Source: Vibrio sp. 05-20-BW147 (GTDB lineage: Bacteria > Pseudomonadota > Gammaproteobacteria > Enterobacterales > Vibrionaceae). From it: DNA of 64,000 bases. Shown here in pieces: positions 20,010-34,030 of the stretch. How positions within the stretch are numbered: the stretch's first letter is position 1; each line of letters starts with the position of its first letter. The DNA is taken from positions 62,001 through 126,000 of the forward strand of contig NZ_SZTO01000018.1 in assembly GCF_013369385.1 (NCBI RefSeq), given 5' to 3'. The position numbers were made by a program, and so were the translations under genes. The notes below the pieces were generated by a model. That model was not told the origin of the DNA. It was given only the letters and a program-made list of their open reading frames with translations, and did no database searches.

Positions 20010-22196
20010 TTAGTTACATGGCGCAACGAACTGCCAAGGACCACCCTGATCGGGTCTATCATTATTGGTCCACCATTTCGCTTGGTAGATGTTTCCTTGA
20101 TAAACCGCTTGATCGCCGCCAACATACACTTGTCCTGCAACCCAGTTGGCAGGACAAGCACTACCCGGTTCAAAACTCACCACCAGCGTTTGGTTTGCGG
20201 CTAAAGATGGGAATGTAAAGCTGCTCGCCACAGGTTGCGTCACACCGTTGACCACGATAGTGCTCACTTTATAGCCCGTGTCAGCAATGAAGTTCACCGT
20301 AAAGTCAGCGCCACCTTGTGCCGAGATCACGCCAGCGGCATCTGGTGTTGGCGAAATGACGCCACCCACCCCACTGACGGAAGCAGTAATTTGGTAGAAC
20401 ACCGGAATATCCGTAGTGACTTCATTGAAGCTTCCAGTGAAGCCTGCAAAATTACTCGCCGTCAATGCTGACAACTGAGTATTCTTGAGCACGAGGCTTT
20501 TCTTGTTGCCCTGCGCAAACGGATCTAACAGGGTTAATACTGTGTCACTTCCCGCTTGAGTCAGTTTAACTGCATTGAACGGGATCGCTTCGTTACTTGC
20601 TGTTGTGATCACCGTTTTCGCTGGATAGAAGTTATTCACCACCATCTGCACATTCCATCCCCAGCTTACGCTGTTGAGTGGAACAATATAACCAAGGCGA
20701 TCGTATCCACCAGTCACGTTAACAAACATCTCTGGATTGATGTCCGCTAACGTTAAACCGACCAACTCATAAGATGCGTAGATACCACCATCTTCCGCTT
20801 GCGGTCCGATCACCACTGAAGTTGCGGTTTCGTACGCTTTCAAGTGTTTAAAGCCAATACCAGCCGATCCTTCAATCTTGTCGACCAGCGGGTCAAAACC
20901 AGTGACCACTTTCTTGCCTGAGTTCCATGCCAGTCTGTAGATATCCGATTTCGTAATCACCGCTGCTGGATTCGCTTGTACCTCAGCAGCACTCACGCCT
21001 GAAAGCAACACCGTTTGTCCTGAGAACTGCAGTTCAGTGCCCCCCGCGACCGAGGCGACAACCAAGCCAGCGAGAGGATCCGTTGCCTGCCACCCTCGTA
21101 GAATGATTTTGTCTTCACCGACAGTAAAATCAGAAATGGTCGTGTTGCTGCCCAGTTGCTCATTAAGTAGCACTTGGTCAACACCCCCACCGGTAATCAC
21201 GATATCGTTGCCCAAGCCCGCAGACAGCACTTCATTGTATTGCGAACCTTCAATCACATCGTTCGCTGGGGTATCAAAAATGGTGTTAAAGCCGCCGAAT
21301 TTGTGGATGTATGTGGTGATACAAGTGCCCAGTTCATCACAGGTAATTTGATCTTTGGTCAACAGTGTTGCGGTTCCCCAAGCCCCACGCAAATGCGCGG
21401 CAGCAAGGATGCCGGACATCGTGGCTTGGATTTGGATCGGGTTGCCATTGGCGTCAGTACCGGGCCAGCTTTTCGCTAACGCTTGCTCCCAAGTCACGTT
21501 GGCATCAGCAAGAAGTTTACTGATCACCTTAACGTTAAAGTGCATGGCGTCGCGCATCACCAACTCTTGCTTTTCTGGTAAACGTAAATCCGCCAGTGAG
21601 TTCACGCCATTTTTGCCAACGAACGTCCCTTCCCAGCGGTTGTTGTCAGTCACGTAAACCTTGTTACCACCAGAGCCCTCAATTTCCGCCAGAGCCTCGG
21701 TTTTACAACCAGCCCACGTCGAATCCGGCACAAACATGTAGAAACTGTCGTAATCTTTACCCGCAATCGAGACCGTTTTCGGGCTGTAGTAACCCGCATC
21801 AATCAAGACAGCCTCACCCAGTTGATAGCCAATGAATCCCCACGCGTTCATTGAGTTGTATTGCATTTGACGGAACATTTCAGCGTCCGTTGGGGTCAAT
21901 GGATTGTAGAGGGTGTCCACGCCAAGCTTAGTAAAAAACTGACTGATTGTGGTTGGTTCCGAGAGCATTGAACCGGTAGAGCAATCACGAACCAATCGTC
22001 CTGGACTGGTTACCTGCGCATAGGTGTACACGGGATTATCAAGGTTTTGTAGGTAAAAATCCGCCAGAGCGGGATTGATACCCGATTCAAAGTTGCGCAA
22101 TGCATCTAAGAAACCTTGGATACCACTTGAGTGGGCGGGTGTGGCCAACGCCACTGCGACAGAGGCTGTTAGCAGTGCTTTTTTCGTTGTGAACAT
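20010..22196 (-). CDS. Secreted multidomain chitin-binding protein, function unknown
   Basis: The 728-residue product has a signal peptide (about 1-23), then an N-terminal domain (24-305) that I cannot assign firmly. RNFESGINP (34-42) and MSGILAAAHLRGAWG (260-274) are reminiscent of lysozyme-like or transglycosylase folds, with Glu37 a possible catalytic acid. A degenerate RTX-like calcium-binding stretch (GSQYNEVLSAGLGNDIVITGGGVDQV, about 317-342) follows, then a region of unknown fold, an InlB-type bacterial repeat (about 612-675), and a C-terminal carbohydrate-binding module of family 5/12 (681-728) with the YQGNIYQAKWWT and GGPWQ aromatic motifs typical of chitin binders. The ATG at 22196 after GAGGA was chosen; upstream frame is not signal-like. 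It lies 133 bases after the family 3 glycosidase gene and shares its strand. Confidence 0.72.
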   Translation of the reverse strand: MFTTKKALLTASVAVALATPAHSSGIQGFLDALRNFESGINPALADFYLQNLDNPVYTYAQVTSPGRLVRDCSTGSMLSEPTTISQFFTKLGVDTLYNPLTPTDAEMFRQMQYNSMNAWGFIGYQLGEAVLIDAGYYSPKTVSIAGKDYDSFYMFVPDSTWAGCKTEALAEIEGSGGNKVYVTDNNRWEGTFVGKNGVNSLADLRLPEKQELVMRDAMHFNVKVISKLLADANVTWEQALAKSWPGTDANGNPIQIQATMSGILAAAHLRGAWGTATLLTKDQITCDELGTCITTYIHKFGGFNTIFDTPANDVIEGSQYNEVLSAGLGNDIVITGGGVDQVLLNEQLGSNTTISDFTVGEDKIILRGWQATDPLAGLVVASVAGGTELQFSGQTVLLSGVSAAEVQANPAAVITKSDIYRLAWNSGKKVVTGFDPLVDKIEGSAGIGFKHLKAYETATSVVIGPQAEDGGIYASYELVGLTLADINPEMFVNVTGGYDRLGYIVPLNSVSWGWNVQMVVNNFYPAKTVITTASNEAIPFNAVKLTQAGSDTVLTLLDPFAQGNKKSLVLKNTQLSALTASNFAGFTGSFNEVTTDIPVFYQITASVSGVGGVISPTPDAAGVISAQGGADFTVNFIADTGYKVSTIVVNGVTQPVASSFTFPSLAANQTLVVSFEPGSACPANWVAGQVYVGGDQAVYQGNIYQAKWWTNNDRPDQGGPWQFVAPCN

Positions 22197-22272
22197 GTTT
22201 TTCCTCGTTGAGTCATTGTTTAAGGCTCCTTGCCTTGTCCATCTCTCCCAACCACAAACCACTAGGAGTCCA

Positions 22273-22298
22273 ACCACTGCTCGATGATGAGCAGTGGT
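22273..22298 (-). repeat. Intercistronic hairpin, glycosidase to secreted protein gene
   Basis: A 10-base perfect stem (ACCACTGCTC 22273-22282 with GAGCAGTGGT 22289-22298) lies between the two genes. No T run follows on either strand, so it is better read as an RNA-stabilising or processing hairpin than a terminator. Confidence 0.65.
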
Positions 22299-22329: not shown

Positions 22330-23937
22330 TTAGGCGACGCGAATCACGGCGCAGCCTTGTGCTGGAGCTGCCTCGCCACTCAAGACACGAGCCGCAGCGG
22401 CGGCACTTTCGGGTCTTGGGGAATGCGCGCACAAATAATGCTTAACATGCGGATACTGCAATAAATCGTAGGGGCTTCGTAGCGCAAGGACGATCAGGTT
22501 AGGGAAATCCTGACTGAGCTGCTGCACCTTGGCTTGCGCTTCAACTTGCTCAAAGTCCTCCCCGGGCAATGGGTGATTTTCGGTCACCACAATCAAGTAA
22601 CCATCGCGACATGCATCCAACTGTTCTTCTTTGATCAATTGCCAATTGGCGTTTTGCTCCGTTAACGCCTGACACAGGGCGCTGAAGGCGGGCAAGGCTT
22701 GGTTAGGGCCGATACCACGAGGATTCATTAAGTTGTGGTAACTTGCCGCTGGTGTCGCGTTAAGTACATAGAGTTTCTGATCACGGAGTGTCAGACCACC
22801 TCGAACCCAAGTCACCGCGCCCCGAGAAACGTCCGCTGCCACTTGTTGGTTCGCAGCAAGGGAAAGATCTTGGTACAACGCCATCGGTACCAGTTTCTCC
22901 AGTTTTAGGCGCACCACTTTCTCTAGCGCTTGATCGATCACGGATTCCGCTAAATCCCCCTGCTCAACGGCATCGATCACGCCATGAATCATCGCCAGTT
23001 GTTTGTCCAAATAAGCATCGGAGTGATCATAATGTTCTTCCGAGAGCATAATCATGGTGATCCCCGCTTGCATGGCCTTGACTGCGGCATCCACAGGCGC
23101 GTAGTGATTGACGATGGCCCCCATGTTCATGCTGTCGGAAATAATCACCCCTTCAAATCCCATGTCTTGACGTAACACTTGCTGCAATATCGTCGCAGAA
23201 AGAGTGGCTGGGGCATGAGCGTCCAGCTGTGGGTAGAGAATATGGCTGGTCATCACCAAGTCAACGCCTGCATCCACGGCCGCTTGGAATGGCGCTAAGT
23301 CGTTCAGCTTTAGATCAGCGTACGATTTATCAACGCGTGGAATATCGCGATGCGTATCACCATGGGTATCACCGTGGCCTGGGAAATGTTTGGCACACGC
23401 AGTGATGCCACCACTGTGTAAGCCTCGCACTGCGGCCGCAGAGTGGCGAGAGACTTTCTCTGGTTGATCGCCAAACGAACGGGTATCGATGATCGGTGAA
23501 GCGGGGTTGAGGTTCACATCACAACAAGGGCCAAGGATGCAGTTAAAACCGGCGCTGCGCATCTCTTGCGCAAACACTTGGTACATCTGCTCTGTGCCCA
23601 TCGTTTGATCCGCCACACCCAATGCTAAGTTGCCCGGCCCGGTGGTCGACTCACCCACCAACACACCCCAAGCCCCTTCTTGATCGACGCCAAGCAGCAA
23701 AGGCAAACGCTGATGTGCCTCTAAGATGCTCTGCAACCCTTTATTGAGCGCTTGCGCCTCAGCAAAGGTTTCTGCGTTATCTTGGCTCAGGTAGCAACCA
23801 CCGAGATTGTACTCCGCGATCATGTGTTGCGCCGCCTGGGCCGATTTACCCGGAAAGGCCAAAATAAACAGTTGTCCGACTTTCTCTTTCAGGCTCCACT
23901 TGGCGATCTGCTCAGTGATCTGTTGTTGGTTTACCAT
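22330..23937 (-). CDS. Glycoside hydrolase family 3, NagZ-like beta-N-acetylglucosaminidase
   Basis: The 535-residue enzyme has no signal peptide and should be cytoplasmic. The GH3 barrel shows VDQEGA at 84-89, the NagZ-type loop KHFPGHGDTHGDTH at 183-196, whose Asp/His act as the general acid/base in NagZ enzymes, and nucleophile Asp268 in VIISDSMNMG. This loop marks beta-N-acetylglucosaminidases (or phosphorylases) rather than beta-glucosidases. A second domain (about 350-535) follows, as in the two-domain Gram-positive NagZ and unlike the roughly 340-residue E. coli NagZ. It lies 27 bases after the permease gene, so it probably cleaves the imported disaccharide or oligosaccharide. The substrate is inferred. 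Confidence 0.85.
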   Translation of the reverse strand: MVNQQQITEQIAKWSLKEKVGQLFILAFPGKSAQAAQHMIAEYNLGGCYLSQDNAETFAEAQALNKGLQSILEAHQRLPLLLGVDQEGAWGVLVGESTTGPGNLALGVADQTMGTEQMYQVFAQEMRSAGFNCILGPCCDVNLNPASPIIDTRSFGDQPEKVSRHSAAAVRGLHSGGITACAKHFPGHGDTHGDTHRDIPRVDKSYADLKLNDLAPFQAAVDAGVDLVMTSHILYPQLDAHAPATLSATILQQVLRQDMGFEGVIISDSMNMGAIVNHYAPVDAAVKAMQAGITMIMLSEEHYDHSDAYLDKQLAMIHGVIDAVEQGDLAESVIDQALEKVVRLKLEKLVPMALYQDLSLAANQQVAADVSRGAVTWVRGGLTLRDQKLYVLNATPAASYHNLMNPRGIGPNQALPAFSALCQALTEQNANWQLIKEEQLDACRDGYLIVVTENHPLPGEDFEQVEAQAKVQQLSQDFPNLIVLALRSPYDLLQYPHVKHYLCAHSPRPESAAAAARVLSGEAAPAQGCAVIRVA

Positions 23938-23964: not shown

Positions 23965-24942
23965 CTATTTTTTGCGCAACTGTTTAATTTGCCCCATGGT
24001 GAACGTCACCGCGACAATCACGATAATCCCACGCAGGATGAGCTGCTGGTCAACGTTGAGGCCCATCAGAATCAATCCGTTATTCACCATTCCCATGATT
24101 AATGCGCCAATCACGGAGCCAATCACGGTGCCTTTGCCACCAAACAAACTGGTTCCACCGATGATCACCGCGGCAATCACCAGCATCAAATCGCTCTCAC
24201 CTAAGGTATATCGTGCGCTGTACAAGCGTCCGGAGTAGAGAATGCCCGCCAAAGCGGCAAGAAAGCCATTGAGCATCAATACATAAAGTTTGATTCTATT
24301 GACGTTGATCCCTGAGTACATGGCTGACACTTTGTTGCCCCCCGTCGCCAACACATGTTTACCAAACGTAGTGTTACGCAGCACAAAGGCACCAATCACA
24401 GTGACGACCAAGGTCCAGATGAACAGCACCGAGAATGGGCCAATATCACCAGAGCCAAAAATAAAGGCGTAGGTATCGTTATCAATGGGAATGGATTGCA
24501 AAGACGTTGACCAACGCGCCACCCCGGTAATGATGCCCGTTGTCCCCAAGGTAACAAGAAATGACGGTATGCCGACCTGAGTAACAAAAATGCCATTGAT
24601 AAAGCCGATCATGGTACCGACCAGCAACGCCGCCGAAACCGCCATCAAAATGCTGTCCGTCTCTTGCAGCGTTAACGCTGAGACGATCGCCGATAAGGCC
24701 ACCGTCGCACCAAAGGAAAGATCGATCTCTGCCGCACTGAGCACAAAGGTCATGCCCACCGCCATAATGGCGATGGTGGCGGTTTGACGCGCGATATTCA
24801 TCAAGTTCATCGAGGTCAAGAAGCCCTTATCGTGCAACATCACGGAAAAGAAGATGAAGATGCCGACAAACACAAAATAGATAATGTAGTCACGCCACTG
24901 GATGGAACGTTCTTTTGGCGCTGGGATGGTTTTTTCATTCAT
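23965..24942 (-). CDS. Ribose-type ABC sugar importer, permease
   Basis: The 325-residue inner-membrane protein is of the BPD_transp_2 (RbsC) family, with about 8-10 helices and the conserved segments MTFVLSAAEIDLSFGATVALSAIV, LATGGNKVSAMYSGINVNRIKL and IGGTSLFGGKGTVIGSVIGALIMG. It would pair as a homodimer with the double ATPase encoded just upstream, 14 bases away. The sugar cannot be read from sequence. The neighbouring NagZ-like enzyme argues for an N-acetylglucosamine-containing ligand. Confidence 0.9.
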   Translation of the reverse strand: MNEKTIPAPKERSIQWRDYIIYFVFVGIFIFFSVMLHDKGFLTSMNLMNIARQTATIAIMAVGMTFVLSAAEIDLSFGATVALSAIVSALTLQETDSILMAVSAALLVGTMIGFINGIFVTQVGIPSFLVTLGTTGIITGVARWSTSLQSIPIDNDTYAFIFGSGDIGPFSVLFIWTLVVTVIGAFVLRNTTFGKHVLATGGNKVSAMYSGINVNRIKLYVLMLNGFLAALAGILYSGRLYSARYTLGESDLMLVIAAVIIGGTSLFGGKGTVIGSVIGALIMGMVNNGLILMGLNVDQQLILRGIIVIVAVTFTMGQIKQLRKK

Positions 24943-24956
24943 AATTCATTTCCTTA

Positions 24957-26438
24957 TTACTGGACCGCGGCCAGCAACTCCTCTTCTGACATTCGTTGTC
25001 CCTGGATCTGTTTGACGATTCGACCTTTGTTGACCACGTAGATCACATCGCAAAAGCTGCCCACTTCGGCATATTCACTGGAGACAAAAATTACCCCGTT
25101 GCCTTGTTCCACATACTGATTAACGATTTTCATGATTTCATATTTGGCATTGATATCGATGCCAAAGGTCGGATCATCGAGCAGCAGCACTTTGGCTTGG
25201 GTCGAGAGACACTTACCAATCACCACTTTTTGCTGATTCCCGCCAGAGAGGTAACGGACCGCTTGGGACGCCCCAGCGGTTTTGACGCCAAGACGACGAA
25301 TCGCTGCATCGACAATGTCTTGCCCTTCATTCTTATCAATAACCAAAGAGTGAGAAATGCGATCGAATGAAGCCATCAGGAGATTGTCAAAGACTGAAAA
25401 ATCCAACACTAGCCCTTGTGAACGGCGCTCTTCGGGCACCATATTGATGCCATTTTCAATCGCATCCCGTGGTGAACGGATGTGTACCGGTTTGCCCTCA
25501 ACCAAGACTTCCCCTTTGGTTAGTGGCGTTAAACCATAAATGGCTTGCAAAATTTCGGTGCGACCACTGCCCAGCAAACCGGCCAAGCCCACCACTTGCC
25601 CTGGCATCACTTTGAGCGAAATCGCATCCAGTTGATCGGTTGTCACCTCTCTGAGTTCAAGCAACGGCACTTTCTGCGTGTCAACCACAGGGCGAAGCCA
25701 ATCCATTTGGGTATCACTTTTATTGCCCAACATCGCTTCCACCAGTGCATCCACTGAGGTTTGTGACGTTGGGGTTTCCAGTACACTGTAGCCATCGCGT
25801 AGGACTGTTACCGCATCGCAAATTCGTAGGATGTCCGCCAAATAGTGGGTGATATAGATGATGCTGATGCCACTCGTTTTGAGCTTTTCGATCACACGAA
25901 ACAGTTCGTTGATTTCATTGTTCGAGAGCGACGCCGTCGGTTCATCAAGCACCAGTATTTTGGCATCGAGCGCCAGTGCCTTGGCGATTTCCACCAGCTG
26001 CTGCTCACCCAAGCTCAATGTTTCAACAAGCTGGCTAGGGTCAATCTCCACGCCCAGCAGCTCTAATAGCGGCTTCGCTTGACGCTCACGGGCCCGATTG
26101 GAAATCAAGCTGCGCCTTGCGGTCGGATGGTTAAGAAAAATATTGTCAGCGATACTTAATGTCGGAACGAGGCTGAGATCCTGATAAACCATGGCAATTC
26201 CAGCGGCTTGCGCCGCCTTTGGTGACGAGAAGGTGACCGCTTTGCCAAACAAGCGAATTTCACCACCATCACGAGTGTGGAAACCATTGATCAGTTTCAC
26301 CAACGTGGATTTCCCGGCGCCGTTTTGCCCCACTAACGCATGGACCTCCCCTTGCTTTAAGGTGAAATCGACTCCTTTCAACACTGGAGTACCATCAAAC
26401 CCTTTTTTTAAACCACGGGCTTCAATTGCATTACTCAC
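24957..26438 (-). CDS. Ribose-type ABC sugar importer, double ATPase
   Basis: The 493-residue protein fuses two nucleotide-binding domains, as in RbsA, XylG and MglA. The first has Walker A GQNGAGKST, signature LSLGEQQLVEIAKAL and Walker B ILVLDEPTASL. The second has the degenerate P-loop GLLGSGRTE and signature LSGGNQQKVVIGKCL with LLLDDPTFGID, the usual asymmetry of this group. The gene follows the binding-protein gene by 65 bases that include a strong hairpin and precedes the permease gene by 14 bases. Confidence 0.92.
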   Translation of the reverse strand: MSNAIEARGLKKGFDGTPVLKGVDFTLKQGEVHALVGQNGAGKSTLVKLINGFHTRDGGEIRLFGKAVTFSSPKAAQAAGIAMVYQDLSLVPTLSIADNIFLNHPTARRSLISNRARERQAKPLLELLGVEIDPSQLVETLSLGEQQLVEIAKALALDAKILVLDEPTASLSNNEINELFRVIEKLKTSGISIIYITHYLADILRICDAVTVLRDGYSVLETPTSQTSVDALVEAMLGNKSDTQMDWLRPVVDTQKVPLLELREVTTDQLDAISLKVMPGQVVGLAGLLGSGRTEILQAIYGLTPLTKGEVLVEGKPVHIRSPRDAIENGINMVPEERRSQGLVLDFSVFDNLLMASFDRISHSLVIDKNEGQDIVDAAIRRLGVKTAGASQAVRYLSGGNQQKVVIGKCLSTQAKVLLLDDPTFGIDINAKYEIMKIVNQYVEQGNGVIFVSSEYAEVGSFCDVIYVVNKGRIVKQIQGQRMSEEELLAAVQ

Positions 26439-26503: not shown

Positions 26504-27580
26504 TTATTTCAGGGCTTTTTGCACCGCTTCAGGCGCTGGGCGACGCAGCGCTTGCTGCCATGCTTCCAACAAGTTATCGCGGGTCACCGCGCTGGCACCA
26601 ACGGTAACAAAAGGAGGAGTTGGCTGATCCAGTTTCGCCAATGCACCCATGCGTGCGAGGGTCTGGCCCAAGTCATATGGCAAATCCGTGACAATGCCCG
26701 CCACGTTGCGTTGTTTGGCCATGTCTAGCGCATTGGCCGCGCCCAAATCCATGGTAATCACTTTAATGTCTTTACGCCCTGCAGCACGAGTGGCGGCAAC
26801 CACCCCTTCCGCAATGCTGTCCCATGGTGCGTAAATCGCTTTAATGTCAGGATATTGGGTAATCATCGCCGAGGCGATCACTTCACCATCATTCGCATTG
26901 GCAATGCCGCGTTTTGCGACCACTTCGATGTTAGGGTAACGCTGTTGCAAATTGGCCAATGCGGCTTGGTCACGCTGATTGGTGACGTAGTAATTCGCTT
27001 CGTGATAGATAAAGCCGACTTTGCCTTTCTCATCCACGGCATCGGCGATGAGATCAGCCGCAATTTTACCCATCTGAGATAAATCATCCGTCACAATACC
27101 GGCGTAGTCTTTACCATGCTCAAAACCACTTGGTAGGTTACTGATCAGCACAAGCTTACTGCCCTGCTCAACCGCAGGACGAAACGCAGCCGCACCTGAG
27201 ACCGGATCAACGACCAATGAAATAAGAATGTCAGGCTTCATCGCCATGGTGGTTTCAACGTCGGTCTTCTGCTTATTGGCATTGAACTCGGCATCCGTGA
27301 CCGCAACCACCTTGATATTCAAATCGGCGAATTTGTCCTTTGCCCCTTCAATTAACGCATTCGACCAATCTGATGTGCTGTGCATCAAAATGGCGGCGGT
27401 GTAACCGGCGGCGCGCACTTGATTTTTCTCCACCTCAGACAACGTCACTTGTGAATAAGGCGTGGCACTTTCGCCATTAGGACCTTTGGTTTCCGTGACC
27501 GCGAATGCCAAACTGCTCACGGCAAGCACAGCACTCATACTTACCGCACGACATAAACTGATTATTGCTTGTTTTTCCAT
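26504..27580 (-). CDS. Periplasmic sugar-binding protein of the ribose-type importer
   Basis: The 358-residue product has a signal peptide with likely cleavage after SLAFA (about 27) and a Peripla_BP_4 fold related to RbsB and LacI. Typical features are ISLVVDPVSGAAAFRPAVEQGSKLVLIS, the hinge-region AIYAPWDSIAEGVVAATRAAGRKDIKVITMDLG, and no lipobox. It is first in an operon with the ATPase, permease and glycosidase genes. The ATG follows weak ribosome-site sequence. A CRP site and other operator-like elements lie upstream. Ligand unknown. Confidence 0.9.
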   Translation of the reverse strand: MEKQAIISLCRAVSMSAVLAVSSLAFAVTETKGPNGESATPYSQVTLSEVEKNQVRAAGYTAAILMHSTSDWSNALIEGAKDKFADLNIKVVAVTDAEFNANKQKTDVETTMAMKPDILISLVVDPVSGAAAFRPAVEQGSKLVLISNLPSGFEHGKDYAGIVTDDLSQMGKIAADLIADAVDEKGKVGFIYHEANYYVTNQRDQAALANLQQRYPNIEVVAKRGIANANDGEVIASAMITQYPDIKAIYAPWDSIAEGVVAATRAAGRKDIKVITMDLGAANALDMAKQRNVAGIVTDLPYDLGQTLARMGALAKLDQPTPPFVTVGASAVTRDNLLEAWQQALRRPAPEAVQKALK

Positions 27581-27603
27581 TTCTCATCCAACCATGTGGG
27601 TAT

Positions 27604-27626
27604 TAGGTAGGTATTAATTTAGGTAT
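27604..27626. repeat. TAGGTA repeats on the operon side
   Basis: TAGGTA occurs at 27604, 27608 (overlapping) and 27620, spanning the expected transcription start of the binding-protein operon. The same hexamer recurs twice before the divergent regulator gene. Confidence 0.5.
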
Positions 27627-27655
27627 TTTATAGGCATTCATATGAGATCGAGATC
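27627..27655 (-). promoter_or_regulatory. Candidate promoter of the sugar importer operon
   Basis: On the minus strand, TATAAA (complement of 27627-27632) can act as a -10 element. The -35 position 17 bases upstream (27650-27655) reads GATCTC, which is poor, as expected for an activator-dependent promoter. Confidence 0.45.
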
Positions 27656-27659
27656 TCAT
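27642..27659. promoter_or_regulatory. 18-base palindromic operator candidate
   Basis: ATGAGATC and GATCTCAT form a perfect inverted repeat with a two-base spacer. It covers the -35 region of the candidate importer promoter, a place suited to a repressor. The binding protein is unknown; a LacI or GntR type would fit the symmetry, but none is encoded here. Confidence 0.5.
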
Positions 27660-27675
27660 CAATCACTTTTTACAT

Positions 27676-27691
27676 TGTGATAACAATCGCA
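27676..27691. promoter_or_regulatory. CRP-cAMP binding site
   Basis: TGTGA-TAACAA-TCGCA matches nine of the ten conserved bases of the CRP consensus TGTGA-N6-TCACA. Its centre is about 62-64 bases upstream of the start predicted from the -10 at 27627-27632, close to the class I distance of -61.5. Confidence 0.7.
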
Positions 27692-27792
27692 AAGATGGCT
27701 AATAATTAAACAAAACGATACATATTGCGCGGAATCATCGCACTGAGAGAACAAAAGCGTAGAATGGCGTGGGTTAAATTTGAGATGCCTAA

Positions 27793-27810
27793 TAGGTAAA
27801 AGATAGGTAT
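27793..27810. repeat. TAGGTA direct repeat on the regulator side
   Basis: TAGGTA occurs at 27793 and 27804, spaced 11 bases or one helical turn, 30-48 bases before the LuxR-type gene start. It may be an autoregulatory site; this is inference from the placement. Confidence 0.45.
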
Positions 27811-27840
27811 ATTGTCAGTTCCAGTTCAATCAGCAGAGAT

Positions 27841-28644
27841 ATGTCACGGTTTATGCCTTCCTCAGACACAATGAATAGTCCAATGACCAGCAATATGTAT
27901 CAACAATTGCTCGCCCTGCATGACATTTATTTTGTGGCCTTTGATCACGAGGAAAAGGTCGTGGCCAGCAATTATCCTGTCGCCACATTGTCACTGCAGA
28001 CCTTAGACGATTTGGTTTTTCTTGTTGGGCCGCAGTTCATAGGTCAAATCCGCGCCTTGTTGAAAGGGCAAACCGCCCAACTCAGTTTTGATATCGCTAA
28101 CTTACACTTTTCTATGTGCCAGCTGCAGGATACCAACAAGAGTCAGCCACTCTACTGCCTGCAAATTGAATCAAAAGAAAAAGTGGCGATGGAACCGAAA
28201 CTCAGCGCCATTGAACAAGACTATCAAATCATTCATGAGCTGACGGAGTCCTTGAGCCTATTGAGTCAATCCGGAACAACACAGCTCCCTGATGAACTGC
28301 AGCAAGAGATCCGCAGCAAACACTTGCCAGAAGTTGAACATCGCTTATCGCAACTGCAAGATCCCAGCTTGAAACTGTGCTTAGAAATCGTCAAAACCAA
28401 TATGGAGAACCTGCTGCAAGAAGACGGTGCGCTCAACAGCCGTTTGCTCGAAGTGCTGACACCATCGGAGCTACAGGTGGCGGAGTTCATTCGCAGTGGC
28501 ATGTCGAGCCAGGAGATTGCCAGCACACTCAATGTGGCGCGGAAAACGGTGGAAAACCACCGCAACAGCCTGCGCAACAAATTGGGCATCACCAATCGCG
28601 GCGTCAATCTGCGCAATTACTTATTAAGTTTAGAGAAACGCTGA
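27841..28644 (+). CDS. LuxR-family transcriptional regulator
   Basis: The 267-residue protein ends in a LuxR-type helix-turn-helix (about 206-262: LTPSELQVAEFIRSGMSSQEIASTLNVARKTVENHRNSLRNKLGI). The N-terminal 110 residues (LLALHDIYFVAFDHEEKVVASN and following) look PAS-like, with a helical linker between. There is no receiver Asp, so it is not a classical response regulator; it may sense a small molecule. It is divergent from the sugar importer operon and is the obvious candidate to control it. The ATG at 27841 has only a weak GAG box; in-frame ATGs at 27853 and 27871 are possible starts. Confidence 0.85.
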   Translation: MSRFMPSSDTMNSPMTSNMYQQLLALHDIYFVAFDHEEKVVASNYPVATLSLQTLDDLVFLVGPQFIGQIRALLKGQTAQLSFDIANLHFSMCQLQDTNKSQPLYCLQIESKEKVAMEPKLSAIEQDYQIIHELTESLSLLSQSGTTQLPDELQQEIRSKHLPEVEHRLSQLQDPSLKLCLEIVKTNMENLLQEDGALNSRLLEVLTPSELQVAEFIRSGMSSQEIASTLNVARKTVENHRNSLRNKLGITNRGVNLRNYLLSLEKR

Positions 28645-32463: not shown

Positions 32464-33231
32464 TTACTTGCCGGCAAAGCTCAGCAACTGGTGGCAAAAA
32501 CTCTCTGGTTCAGTGATAAAAGGCGCGTGTGACGACTGGGTGAAAATGAACTGCTCACTGGCGGGTAACGCTTTCTCCAGATCCTGCGCCACCTTGATCG
32601 GCACCAACCCGTCCAAACGGCCGTACAGACGCAACATCGGCATCGTTAAGTGCGGCAGATGGTCGCGCAAGTCCACCTCCGCCAGCATTTGCAGCCCAGC
32701 CAAAAGCGATTGAGGGTTGGGTTGCGGGCGCGAGAACACCGCTTGTTTGAGGTTTTTCACATCTTGTCGCGCAGAAGGGCTGCCCATGGCTTGCAGCGCC
32801 ATAAAACGCTCTACCGTGGTGTGAAAATCTTCACTCAACTGCTCGGTAAAGGCGCTCAGAACTTGTGGCTGAATGCCGCGCCAACGCGCTTCTGCAGCGA
32901 ACTTCGGTGAGCTCGCCACCGTCACTAACTTGCTGACGTAATCGGCGTGATGCAGCGCCATGTGCGTCGCCACCAGACCACCTAATGACCAGCCAACCCA
33001 AATGGCTTGTTTTGGTGCATGCTCGAGAAGCTGCTGGGCAATCTCTTCTAAACTTGCCGCATGAAGATGGGCACTGTGGCCATAGCCAGGCAGATCCACC
33101 ACATGCAAACGAAAGTGCAGCTCCAGCCTTTCAACCACCTGCTGCCACACCGCGCCATTCATGCCCCAGCCATGCAGCAACACCAAATCGGGCCCCTGAC
33201 CTTGTGTTTGCCAGTGTAAATCTGTGCTCAT
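32464..33231 (-). CDS. bioH: Pimeloyl-ACP methyl ester carboxylesterase BioH
   Basis: The 255-residue alpha/beta hydrolase removes the methyl group from pimeloyl-ACP methyl ester in biotin synthesis. The catalytic triad is fully visible and has E. coli numbering: Ser82 in GWSLGG, Asp207 in RLDGLVP, His235 in SSHAPF. The oxyanion region HGWGMNG is also present. The ATG at 33231 was chosen for MSTDLHWQTQG and its AGAGGGA box; the open frame extends 27 codons further upstream. It is divergent from comF with about 90 bases between. Confidence 0.95.
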   Translation of the reverse strand: MSTDLHWQTQGQGPDLVLLHGWGMNGAVWQQVVERLELHFRLHVVDLPGYGHSAHLHAASLEEIAQQLLEHAPKQAIWVGWSLGGLVATHMALHHADYVSKLVTVASSPKFAAEARWRGIQPQVLSAFTEQLSEDFHTTVERFMALQAMGSPSARQDVKNLKQAVFSRPQPNPQSLLAGLQMLAEVDLRDHLPHLTMPMLRLYGRLDGLVPIKVAQDLEKALPASEQFIFTQSSHAPFITEPESFCHQLLSFAGK

Positions 33232-33319
33232 CTTCCCTCTTACTCCTACTTTTTCCAGCCTCAAGCGCCACGTGTGGTCGAGTACGCTAGCGACACGATT
33301 CATTCGCCCCACTGCCCGT

Positions 33320-34030
33320 ATGTTAACCGATTGGCTTAGTGAAAAAATACTCCGATCTCTTCCTCGCCTCTGTCATCTGTGCGGCTTGCCGATGAATCAC
33401 GACCATCACCCGCTTTGGTGCAAGCACTGCCTAACCCTGTTCGATGCCGAACCGCGTTGCCAACGTTGCGGGCTGCCGACGTTAACGGTTGTCCCCCAGT
33501 GCGGCCAATGTCTGAAATCTCCGCCCCCTTGGCAAAGGCTCTACTGCCTCACGCCGTATCGCTTTCCAACCTCACACTACGTCAATCAGATCAAACATCA
33601 GCGCAAATTCTGGTACTGCGCCAACTTGGCACCTTTGCTCATCCAACGCATTGACCGCCCCGCGCCACTGCTGCTCTCTGTGCCGATGCATTGGCGTCGG
33701 CAATGGCAGCGAGGCTTCAATCAAAGCGATGTGTTGGCGGCGCAACTGGCCCGTAGATTAAATCGCCCCTTCCTTGCCCACGCTTTTACTCGTTTGTTGC
33801 ACACTCCGCCACAGCAAGGGCTCAATAAACAGCAGCGTCAGCGCAACTTAGCGGGTGCTTTTCGCCTCAATCGCTCGGCTCTGCCCCATGCGATTCCCAA
33901 GCATGTCGCGATTGTCGATGATGTGGTCACGACGGGCAGTACGGTACGACAATTATGTCAATTACTGCTTGCAGTCGGCGTGGAAAGCATTGATATTTAT
34001 TGCCTCTGCCGAACTCCCGAGAAGGATTAA
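33320..34030 (+). CDS. comF: ComF family protein (competence-linked phosphoribosyltransferase-like)
   Basis: The 236-residue protein has an N-terminal zinc-finger-like region with four Cys-X2-Cys pairs (CHLCG, CKHC, CQRCG, CGQC) and a C-terminal PRTase fold with the PRPP loop VAIVDDVVTTGST. ComF proteins are needed for natural transformation in several bacteria, including Vibrio and Haemophilus relatives, probably in single-stranded DNA handling. The ATG at 33320 was chosen because the upstream in-frame sequence is not conserved. It is divergent from bioH and precedes nfuA. Confidence 0.9.
   Translation: MLTDWLSEKILRSLPRLCHLCGLPMNHDHHPLWCKHCLTLFDAEPRCQRCGLPTLTVVPQCGQCLKSPPPWQRLYCLTPYRFPTSHYVNQIKHQRKFWYCANLAPLLIQRIDRPAPLLLSVPMHWRRQWQRGFNQSDVLAAQLARRLNRPFLAHAFTRLLHTPPQQGLNKQQRQRNLAGAFRLNRSALPHAIPKHVAIVDDVVTTGSTVRQLCQLLLAVGVESIDIYCLCRTPEKD

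Follow-up and report, generated by a model that had tools for sequence, protein, structure and literature searches.

The control region at 27581–27852 of the window (the whole 64,000-nucleotide stretch that was analyzed) is a well-preserved but ordinary type of bacterial gene switch. It is conserved in related genomes, and it most likely turns a sugar operon on once preferred sugars run out, while the neighboring regulator most likely holds that operon off. We propose, with about even confidence in the reading as a whole, that a class III-like promoter served by CRP is combined here with repeat arrays on which a GerE-domain regulator represses both divergent promoters. The motifs, their spacing, their conservation and their linkage to the regulator gene can be read directly from the DNA of the window and its relatives.

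Results and discussion

The operon, its divergent regulator gene and their relatives

The control region and the genes around it are as follows, the minus-strand genes being given in their order from the control region.

27581–27852, no strand assigned: divergent control region, flanked by the minus-strand gene for the binding protein, which starts at 27580, and by the LuxR-type gene, whose likely ATG is at 27853
26504–27580, minus strand: sugar-binding protein, operon gene 1 (Peripla_BP_4)
24957–26438, minus strand: ATPase of a sugar ABC transporter (family matches)
23965–24942, minus strand: permease of a sugar ABC transporter (family matches)
22330–23937, minus strand: GH3 enzyme, N-acetylhexosaminidase-like (family and structure matches)
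20010–22277, minus strand: 755-residue protein with a C-terminal CBM5/12 (Pfam)
27853–28644, plus strand: LuxR-type regulator gene, encoding a GerE domain and an N-terminal half predicted to be PAS-like (the listed ORF begins at 27841)

The operon probably handles a GlcNAc-related sugar. The best solved relative of its GH3 enzyme is the GH3 beta-N-acetylglucosaminidase 6k5j (E 3.4e-68), and the enzyme scores under the NCBIfam beta-N-acetylhexosaminidase cut-off (159.9 against 207). In the 755-residue protein, an RTX-like stretch falls slightly under the Pfam cut-off (22.2 against 23), and residues 1–337 match no Pfam family at E 0.001. Nothing in the window reached the gathering score of an Rfam family, no tRNA was found in it, and 27540–27900 showed no terminator-like site.

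The LuxR-type gene occurs in 17 of 329 genomes of the family (E 1e-25 or better), and a scan of contigs for it returned four loci, in V. mimicus, V. metoecus, V. mexicanus and V. aestivus. The genes for the binding protein, the ATPase and the permease adjoin it in each of the other 16 genomes (the operon table omits matches shorter than a quarter of the query). The GH3 gene is present in 15 of them, the remaining contig, L068, ending inside the permease gene, and the CBM5/12 protein adjoins the operon in the stretches from eight. Operon and regulator are divergent in 15 of the 16; in G238 the two parts lie at opposite ends of one contig. The gene greB is nearby in five of the 16: the operon-regulator block is found near greB in the window and in these five genomes, and is absent there in the stretches from the other 11, as if it may move as a cassette.

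Damaged or incomplete copies include the regulator of L037 and the binding protein of L044/L082; in L078 and L079 the GH3 and ATPase matches are partial. In V. metoecus OP3H the LuxR-type gene (L037 1407–2199, L047 8001–8793) matches in two frames with a break near codon 235, so that this regulator may be damaged while the operon genes remain. V. mexicanus carries a second, partial copy of the LuxR-type gene, a 3' portion at L078 17370–17666, beside ORFs that by eye resemble an IS3-type transposase.

The intergenic comparison comprised 17 sequences in seven clades of our own grouping, which makes the counts over these regions non-independent; the site patterns were written after the alignment was seen. 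Sixteen sequences were aligned, and the seventeenth, L075, which supplies the intergenic part that L038/L074 lack, was joined afterwards. Four records were left out: L046 and L047 are identical to L032 and L037, and L048 and L049 are the named records for L003 and L041. The regulator protein alignment has 15 rows, omitting L037 (broken frame), L038 (cut at the contig end), L045 (partial copy) and the duplicates L046–L049. Across the intergenic alignment, conserved islands stand amid spacer that aligns poorly elsewhere. An earlier note, made from the window alone, had proposed looking for its motifs in orthologous regions and had named their lack of conservation there as the outcome that would speak against it; most of them are kept.

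Two CRP-like sites at a fixed spacing

Two elements in the control region resemble the CRP site.

27676–27691, no strand assigned: canonical CRP site TGTGATAACAATCGCA, TGTGA-N6-TCGCA, core matching nine of ten key bases
27643–27658, no strand assigned: second CRP-like site TGAGATCGAGATCTCA, palindromic, matching 13 of 16 positions of the ideal core, inside the inverted repeat at 27642–27659

Both the CRP site and the inverted repeat, ATGAGATC-GA-GATCTCAT with 8-bp arms and a 2-bp spacer, had been recognized in the earlier note, as had the sequence TTTATA at 27627–27632, and all three are read at these positions. Its view of the region as compact, divergent and equipped with a CRP site also stands, and the canonical site is conserved in 15 of 17 orthologous regions (the pattern was written after the alignment was seen); these 15 represent six clades of our own grouping rather than 15 independent events.

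The note had treated the palindrome as an element lying over a poor −35. Comparison of the regions suggests that a second CRP site describes it better than a separate operator does. In all 15 regions that have the canonical site, the two centers are exactly 33 bp apart, and no other place in the region matches the ideal CRP core TGTGATCTAGATCACA as well as the palindrome, which agrees with it at 10 to 13 of 16 positions (a 22-bp CRP consensus is given in PMC2859248). The match in the window, 13 of 16, was equalled in only 1 of 2000 shuffles of 27581–27840. Two CRP-like sites at a fixed spacing, the arrangement by which a class III (tandem-site) promoter is recognized, are thus present in the sequence. 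We predict, with reasonable though not high confidence, that the palindrome is a CRP site. The window palindrome departs from the CRP consensus at positions 6 and 17, and these positions also vary much among relatives. Some regions are less regular: the left half-site is degenerate in L042 and L043, and the CRP site of L044 is weak (core 8). L039 and L040, which form one clade, lack the tandem pair yet keep the repeat arrays described below; in each, a lone CRP-like site, TTTGA-N6-TCGCA (core 8 of 10), is centered about 43 bp from TATATT by subtraction.

Taken singly, the palindrome and the CRP core each carry little weight. An inverted repeat with arms of at least 8 bp was reached in 92 of 2000 shuffles of 27581–27840, so the palindrome alone is weak evidence, and a CRP core of nine in ten was reached in 25 of 2000. 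Over the whole window there are 3 one-mismatch CRP cores against 3.02 expected, 6 TGMGA-N6-TCKCA cores with at most one mismatch against 9.35 expected, and 1 instance of the palindrome pattern against 0.22 expected, a pattern that 16 of 100 shuffles contained at least once. Independent support for the motifs comes from their conservation in orthologous regions. That they are functionless products of chance would fit how common each is singly, but it is contradicted by conservation at fixed spacing in several clades and by co-occurrence with the regulator gene, and we consider it extremely improbable.

A different identity for the palindrome is also conceivable. It could serve another factor, or it could be a CRP-S (Sxy/TfoX-dependent) site tying the operon to chitin-induced competence. 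The GlcNAc-related look of the operon suits the latter idea, and some relatives carry TGCGA-N6-TCGCG, which agrees at nine of ten bases with the H. influenzae element TGCGA-N6-TCGCA (PMC4595672). The window, however, has TGAGA-N6-TCTCA, with A6/T17 in place of C6/G17, and does not show that core. The in silico Vibrionaceae CRP-S consensus printed in PMC4299799 differs as well, which lowers our estimate for a CRP-S site, and the E. coli CRP-S sites described in PMC6728893 work from a class I-like position. Nor is a genome-wide palindrome regulon evident, a candidate that we rejected: the exact pattern occurs at one place in the genome of the window and at three more with one mismatch, and when up to two mismatches are allowed it matches at 47 places and its reversed control at 25, both strands being counted in each case. 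Taken together, we regard either identity as unlikely. The window also has a putative ComF-like ORF at 33224–34030, and the window scan found no TGMGA-N6-TCKCA core near it.

The palindrome at 27643–27658 contains two GATC (Dam) sequences six bases apart. Two are found in 13 of the 15 regions and one in L042 and L043. Dam methylation of the palindrome could affect binding.

A conserved candidate −10 and the predicted positions of the tandem sites

Two candidates for the −10 element of the operon were compared.

27616–27621, minus strand: candidate operon −10, TAAATT (TATATT in 12 of 15 regions), with a predicted start near 27609
27627–27632, minus strand: TATAAA, the −10 of the earlier note, kept in 2 of 15 regions

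If TATAAA were the −10, a single CRP site near −62 would act from the class I position and the palindrome would be an operator overlapping the −35. TATAAA is indeed the better match to consensus in the window (5 of 6 against 4 of 6 for TAAATT), it stands 17 bp from the hexamer under the palindrome, and it is retained in L031. It is kept in only 2 of 15 regions, however, and an operator over the −35 accounts poorly for a palindrome that keeps its 33-bp distance from the CRP site and is the best CRP-core match in every one of the 15 regions. We consider this arrangement improbable.

The element that is conserved is TATATT, which lies 31 bp from the center of the palindrome in 12 of 15 regions. 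In the window and L031 its counterpart is TAAATT at 32 bp, in L044 it is TATAAT at 30 bp, and L039 and L040 show TATATT as well. Counted from a −10 about 31 bp away, the palindrome would stand near −41.5, where class II sites lie, and the canonical site near −74.5 instead of the −62 to −64 given in the earlier note; these positions are computed from the conserved −10 and so from a predicted start. The conservation of TATATT is not independent of the repeat array, because it shares bases with array unit u3. A simple sigma-70 scan found neither predicted promoter and returned one other match against 1.3 expected from shuffles; the −35 hexamers of both promoters are poor. Measured from the palindrome, the distances are 33 bp to the CRP site and 29–31 bp to u3 (by subtraction), and the CRP center is anywhere between 114.5 and 157.5 bp away from the luxR promoter unit. 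Since this last distance varies, CRP probably serves the operon.

Head-to-tail repeats at both predicted promoters

The repeats at the two gene starts, all on the plus strand, and the candidate luxR −10 are as follows.

27597–27604, plus strand: array unit u1, TGGGTATT
27608–27615, plus strand: array unit u2, TAGGTATT
27620–27627, plus strand: array unit u3, TAGGTATT
27631–27638, plus strand: array unit u4, TAGGCATT
27604–27609, plus strand: TAGGTA outside the 11/12/11 register, not conserved as a unit
27782–27787, plus strand: weak third luxR-side unit, GAGATG (AAGGTG or CAGGTG there in g33)
27793–27800, plus strand: luxR-side unit TAGGTAAA
27804–27811, plus strand: luxR-side unit TAGGTATA, overlapping the luxR −10
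27808–27813, plus strand: candidate luxR −10, TATATT, with a predicted start near 27820

The earlier note had listed five TAGGTA hexamers, at 27604, 27608, 27620, 27793 and 27804, and all five are there. What changes is their description: the hexamers are parts of phased, head-to-tail TAGGTATT octamers spaced in steps of 11/12/11 bp in 13 of 17 regions, the copy at 27604 falls out of register, and the units at 27597 (TGGGTATT) and 27631 (TAGGCATT) had been overlooked. Operon-side variants are TGAGTATT, TAGGTGTT and TGGGTATT. L043 has five operon-side units (steps 11, 12, 12, 11) and L044 three (steps 11, 11); in L040 and L042 one unit each is missed at 6 of 8. On the luxR side, 14 of 17 regions have TAGGTA-type units at an interval of 11 bp, the last unit overlapping the −10 candidate. 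L044 lacks the luxR-side pair, and L039 and L040 have three units followed by a degenerate last one. Over the 17 regions, unit matches of at least 6 of 8, chance matches included, number 123 on the plus strand against 40 on the minus strand.

Neither five TAGGTA on one strand nor a chain of three RGTAT at 10–12 bp appeared in any of 2000 dinucleotide-preserving shuffles of 27581–27840, tests that, like the other shuffle tests on 27581–27840, were picked after the sequence was seen and are therefore optimistic. The whole window holds 16 TAGGTA against 7.92 expected, 5 of them in the control region, and a three-unit GTATT pattern has one place in the genome of the window and none in the reversed control. 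A longer array pattern with at most one mismatch matched in 13 of 329 genomes, all of them LuxR-positive, each match falling in this intergenic region. At two mismatches it matched in 15 of 17 LuxR-positive and 9 of 312 LuxR-negative genomes (10 places); its reversed control matched in 7 genomes. A relaxed pattern, found in 158 of 329 genomes, was dropped as too loose to be informative in favor of this stricter one.

Based on these results, we predict with good confidence that the LuxR-type regulator binds the arrays. The suggestion that one regulator, the LuxR-type protein, acts on the repeats at both gene starts gains support from the restriction of the pattern, at one mismatch or fewer, to LuxR-positive genomes, which falls short of proof; because operon and regulator travel together, this linkage fits the regulator or another operon-specific factor alike.

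A GerE-domain regulator with a predicted PAS-like N-terminal half

The regulator ORF encodes 267 residues with a GerE domain (PF00196, 50.4 bits against a cut-off of 23.5). The ATG at 27853 is its likely start, because in L031, the nearest relative, a TGA directly follows the ATG that matches 27841. GerE is the sole Pfam match at E 0.001, with no PAS or autoinducer-binding family among the results. The predicted structure, which is of low confidence (mean pLDDT 64.1, pTM 0.48), has a PAS-like topology in the N-terminal half. Foldseek placed EL222 at the top for this model (best E 3.2e-3), listed VqmA and photoactive yellow protein along with the homoserine-lactone receptors RhlR, SdiA and CviR, and gave no match at E < 0.001. 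A PAS-like sensor in the N-terminal half is probable. The protein would then resemble the PAS-GerE proteins EL222 and VqmA, which carry GerE as the C-terminal domain, although the structural matches here are weak and the sequence matches cover the GerE part alone.

Two other identities were rejected. An acyl-homoserine-lactone LuxR receptor is not indicated, as Pfam finds no autoinducer-binding domain and the structural matches are weak; and the NCBIfam MalT model gives 31.7 bits against a cut-off of 537. A third comparison offers a lead only. The ATAGGTA unit read backwards, TACCTAT, fits the NarL/NarP heptamer, given as TACYYMT in PMC4886647, and NarL has the same kind of DNA-binding domain; here, in contrast, the units are direct repeats at 11 bp, and Pfam found no receiver domain in the regulator.

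Proposed mechanism

We infer CRP binding, the transcription starts, the LuxR-type protein as the binder, the sign of its action and the sugar, and we offer the following scheme on that footing. cAMP-CRP would bind the canonical site at 27676–27691 and, with the help of that site, CRP would also occupy the weaker palindromic site at 27643–27658, which lies 33 bp closer to the operon. CRP-cAMP would then activate the operon from a class III-like promoter, in which CRP stands near −74.5 and −41.5 and the −10 is at 27616–27621. The GerE-domain protein would sit head-to-tail on the TAGGTATT units, about one helical turn apart, covering approximately −29 to +13 at the operon promoter as well as the −35/−10 stretch of its own promoter, and would block RNA polymerase at both until a signal relieves repression.

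Repression of both promoters is the most likely action because the arrays cover the −10 and start of the operon and the −35/−10 of luxR, and we favor repression over activation with modest confidence. The same sites could instead be used by the LuxR-type protein as an activator working with CRP, in the manner of MalT. Activation is common among GerE-domain regulators, and the poor −35 hexamers at both predicted promoters would suit it; the units, however, span −29 to +13 at the predicted operon promoter and also lie across the luxR −10, where binding should block polymerase. We judge activation to be rather unlikely. Beyond simple repression, it is possible, though doubtful, that a PAS-GerE regulator, found here in Vibrionaceae only, lines up head to tail on at least four directly repeated octamers, roughly one for each helical turn, and shuts both promoters, and that the tandem CRP pair, whose weak proximal site contains the two GATC sequences, imposes a co-operative, perhaps methylation-sensitive threshold on the operon.

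The closest parallels to the proposed repressed, class III-like region each share part of its design. The E. coli malE-malK divergent region is controlled by CRP together with MalT, a GerE-domain regulator, on directly repeated sites, so it resembles the region studied here in its divergent sugar genes, its GerE-domain regulator on direct repeats and its CRP. MalT is a large activator with other boxes, unlike the 267-residue protein described here, whose score falls well short of the MalT model cut-off.

In Vibrio, the class III promoter of tfoX has a good CRP site at −84.5 and a poor one at −41.5, and mutating either lowers activity; the best synergy was reported with the upstream site 40 or 50 bp away (PMC4595672). 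The likeness lies in a good distal CRP site combined with a weak proximal one near −41.5 over the −35. In tfoX, however, the spacing is 43 bp as opposed to 33 bp and −41.5 is counted from a mapped start, whereas here the start is predicted; the tfoX promoter passages of PMC4595672 mention no repeat array such as the one seen here. Judged by titles and the beginnings of abstracts, we found no literature on this operon, and none was found that joins PAS, GerE and direct repeats.

By comparison of orthologous regions, then, the original observation is real and largely conserved, the idea of a single regulator is supported but not proved, and a class I promoter is not supported. The comparison thereby corrects a promoter call made from one sequence, since the window alone makes evident neither the −10 that relatives conserve nor the second CRP-like site. 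It adds to tfoX a likely second Vibrio promoter in which the distal CRP site is strong and the proximal one weak, and it gives an uncharacterized GerE-domain regulator a testable operator with evolutionary support.
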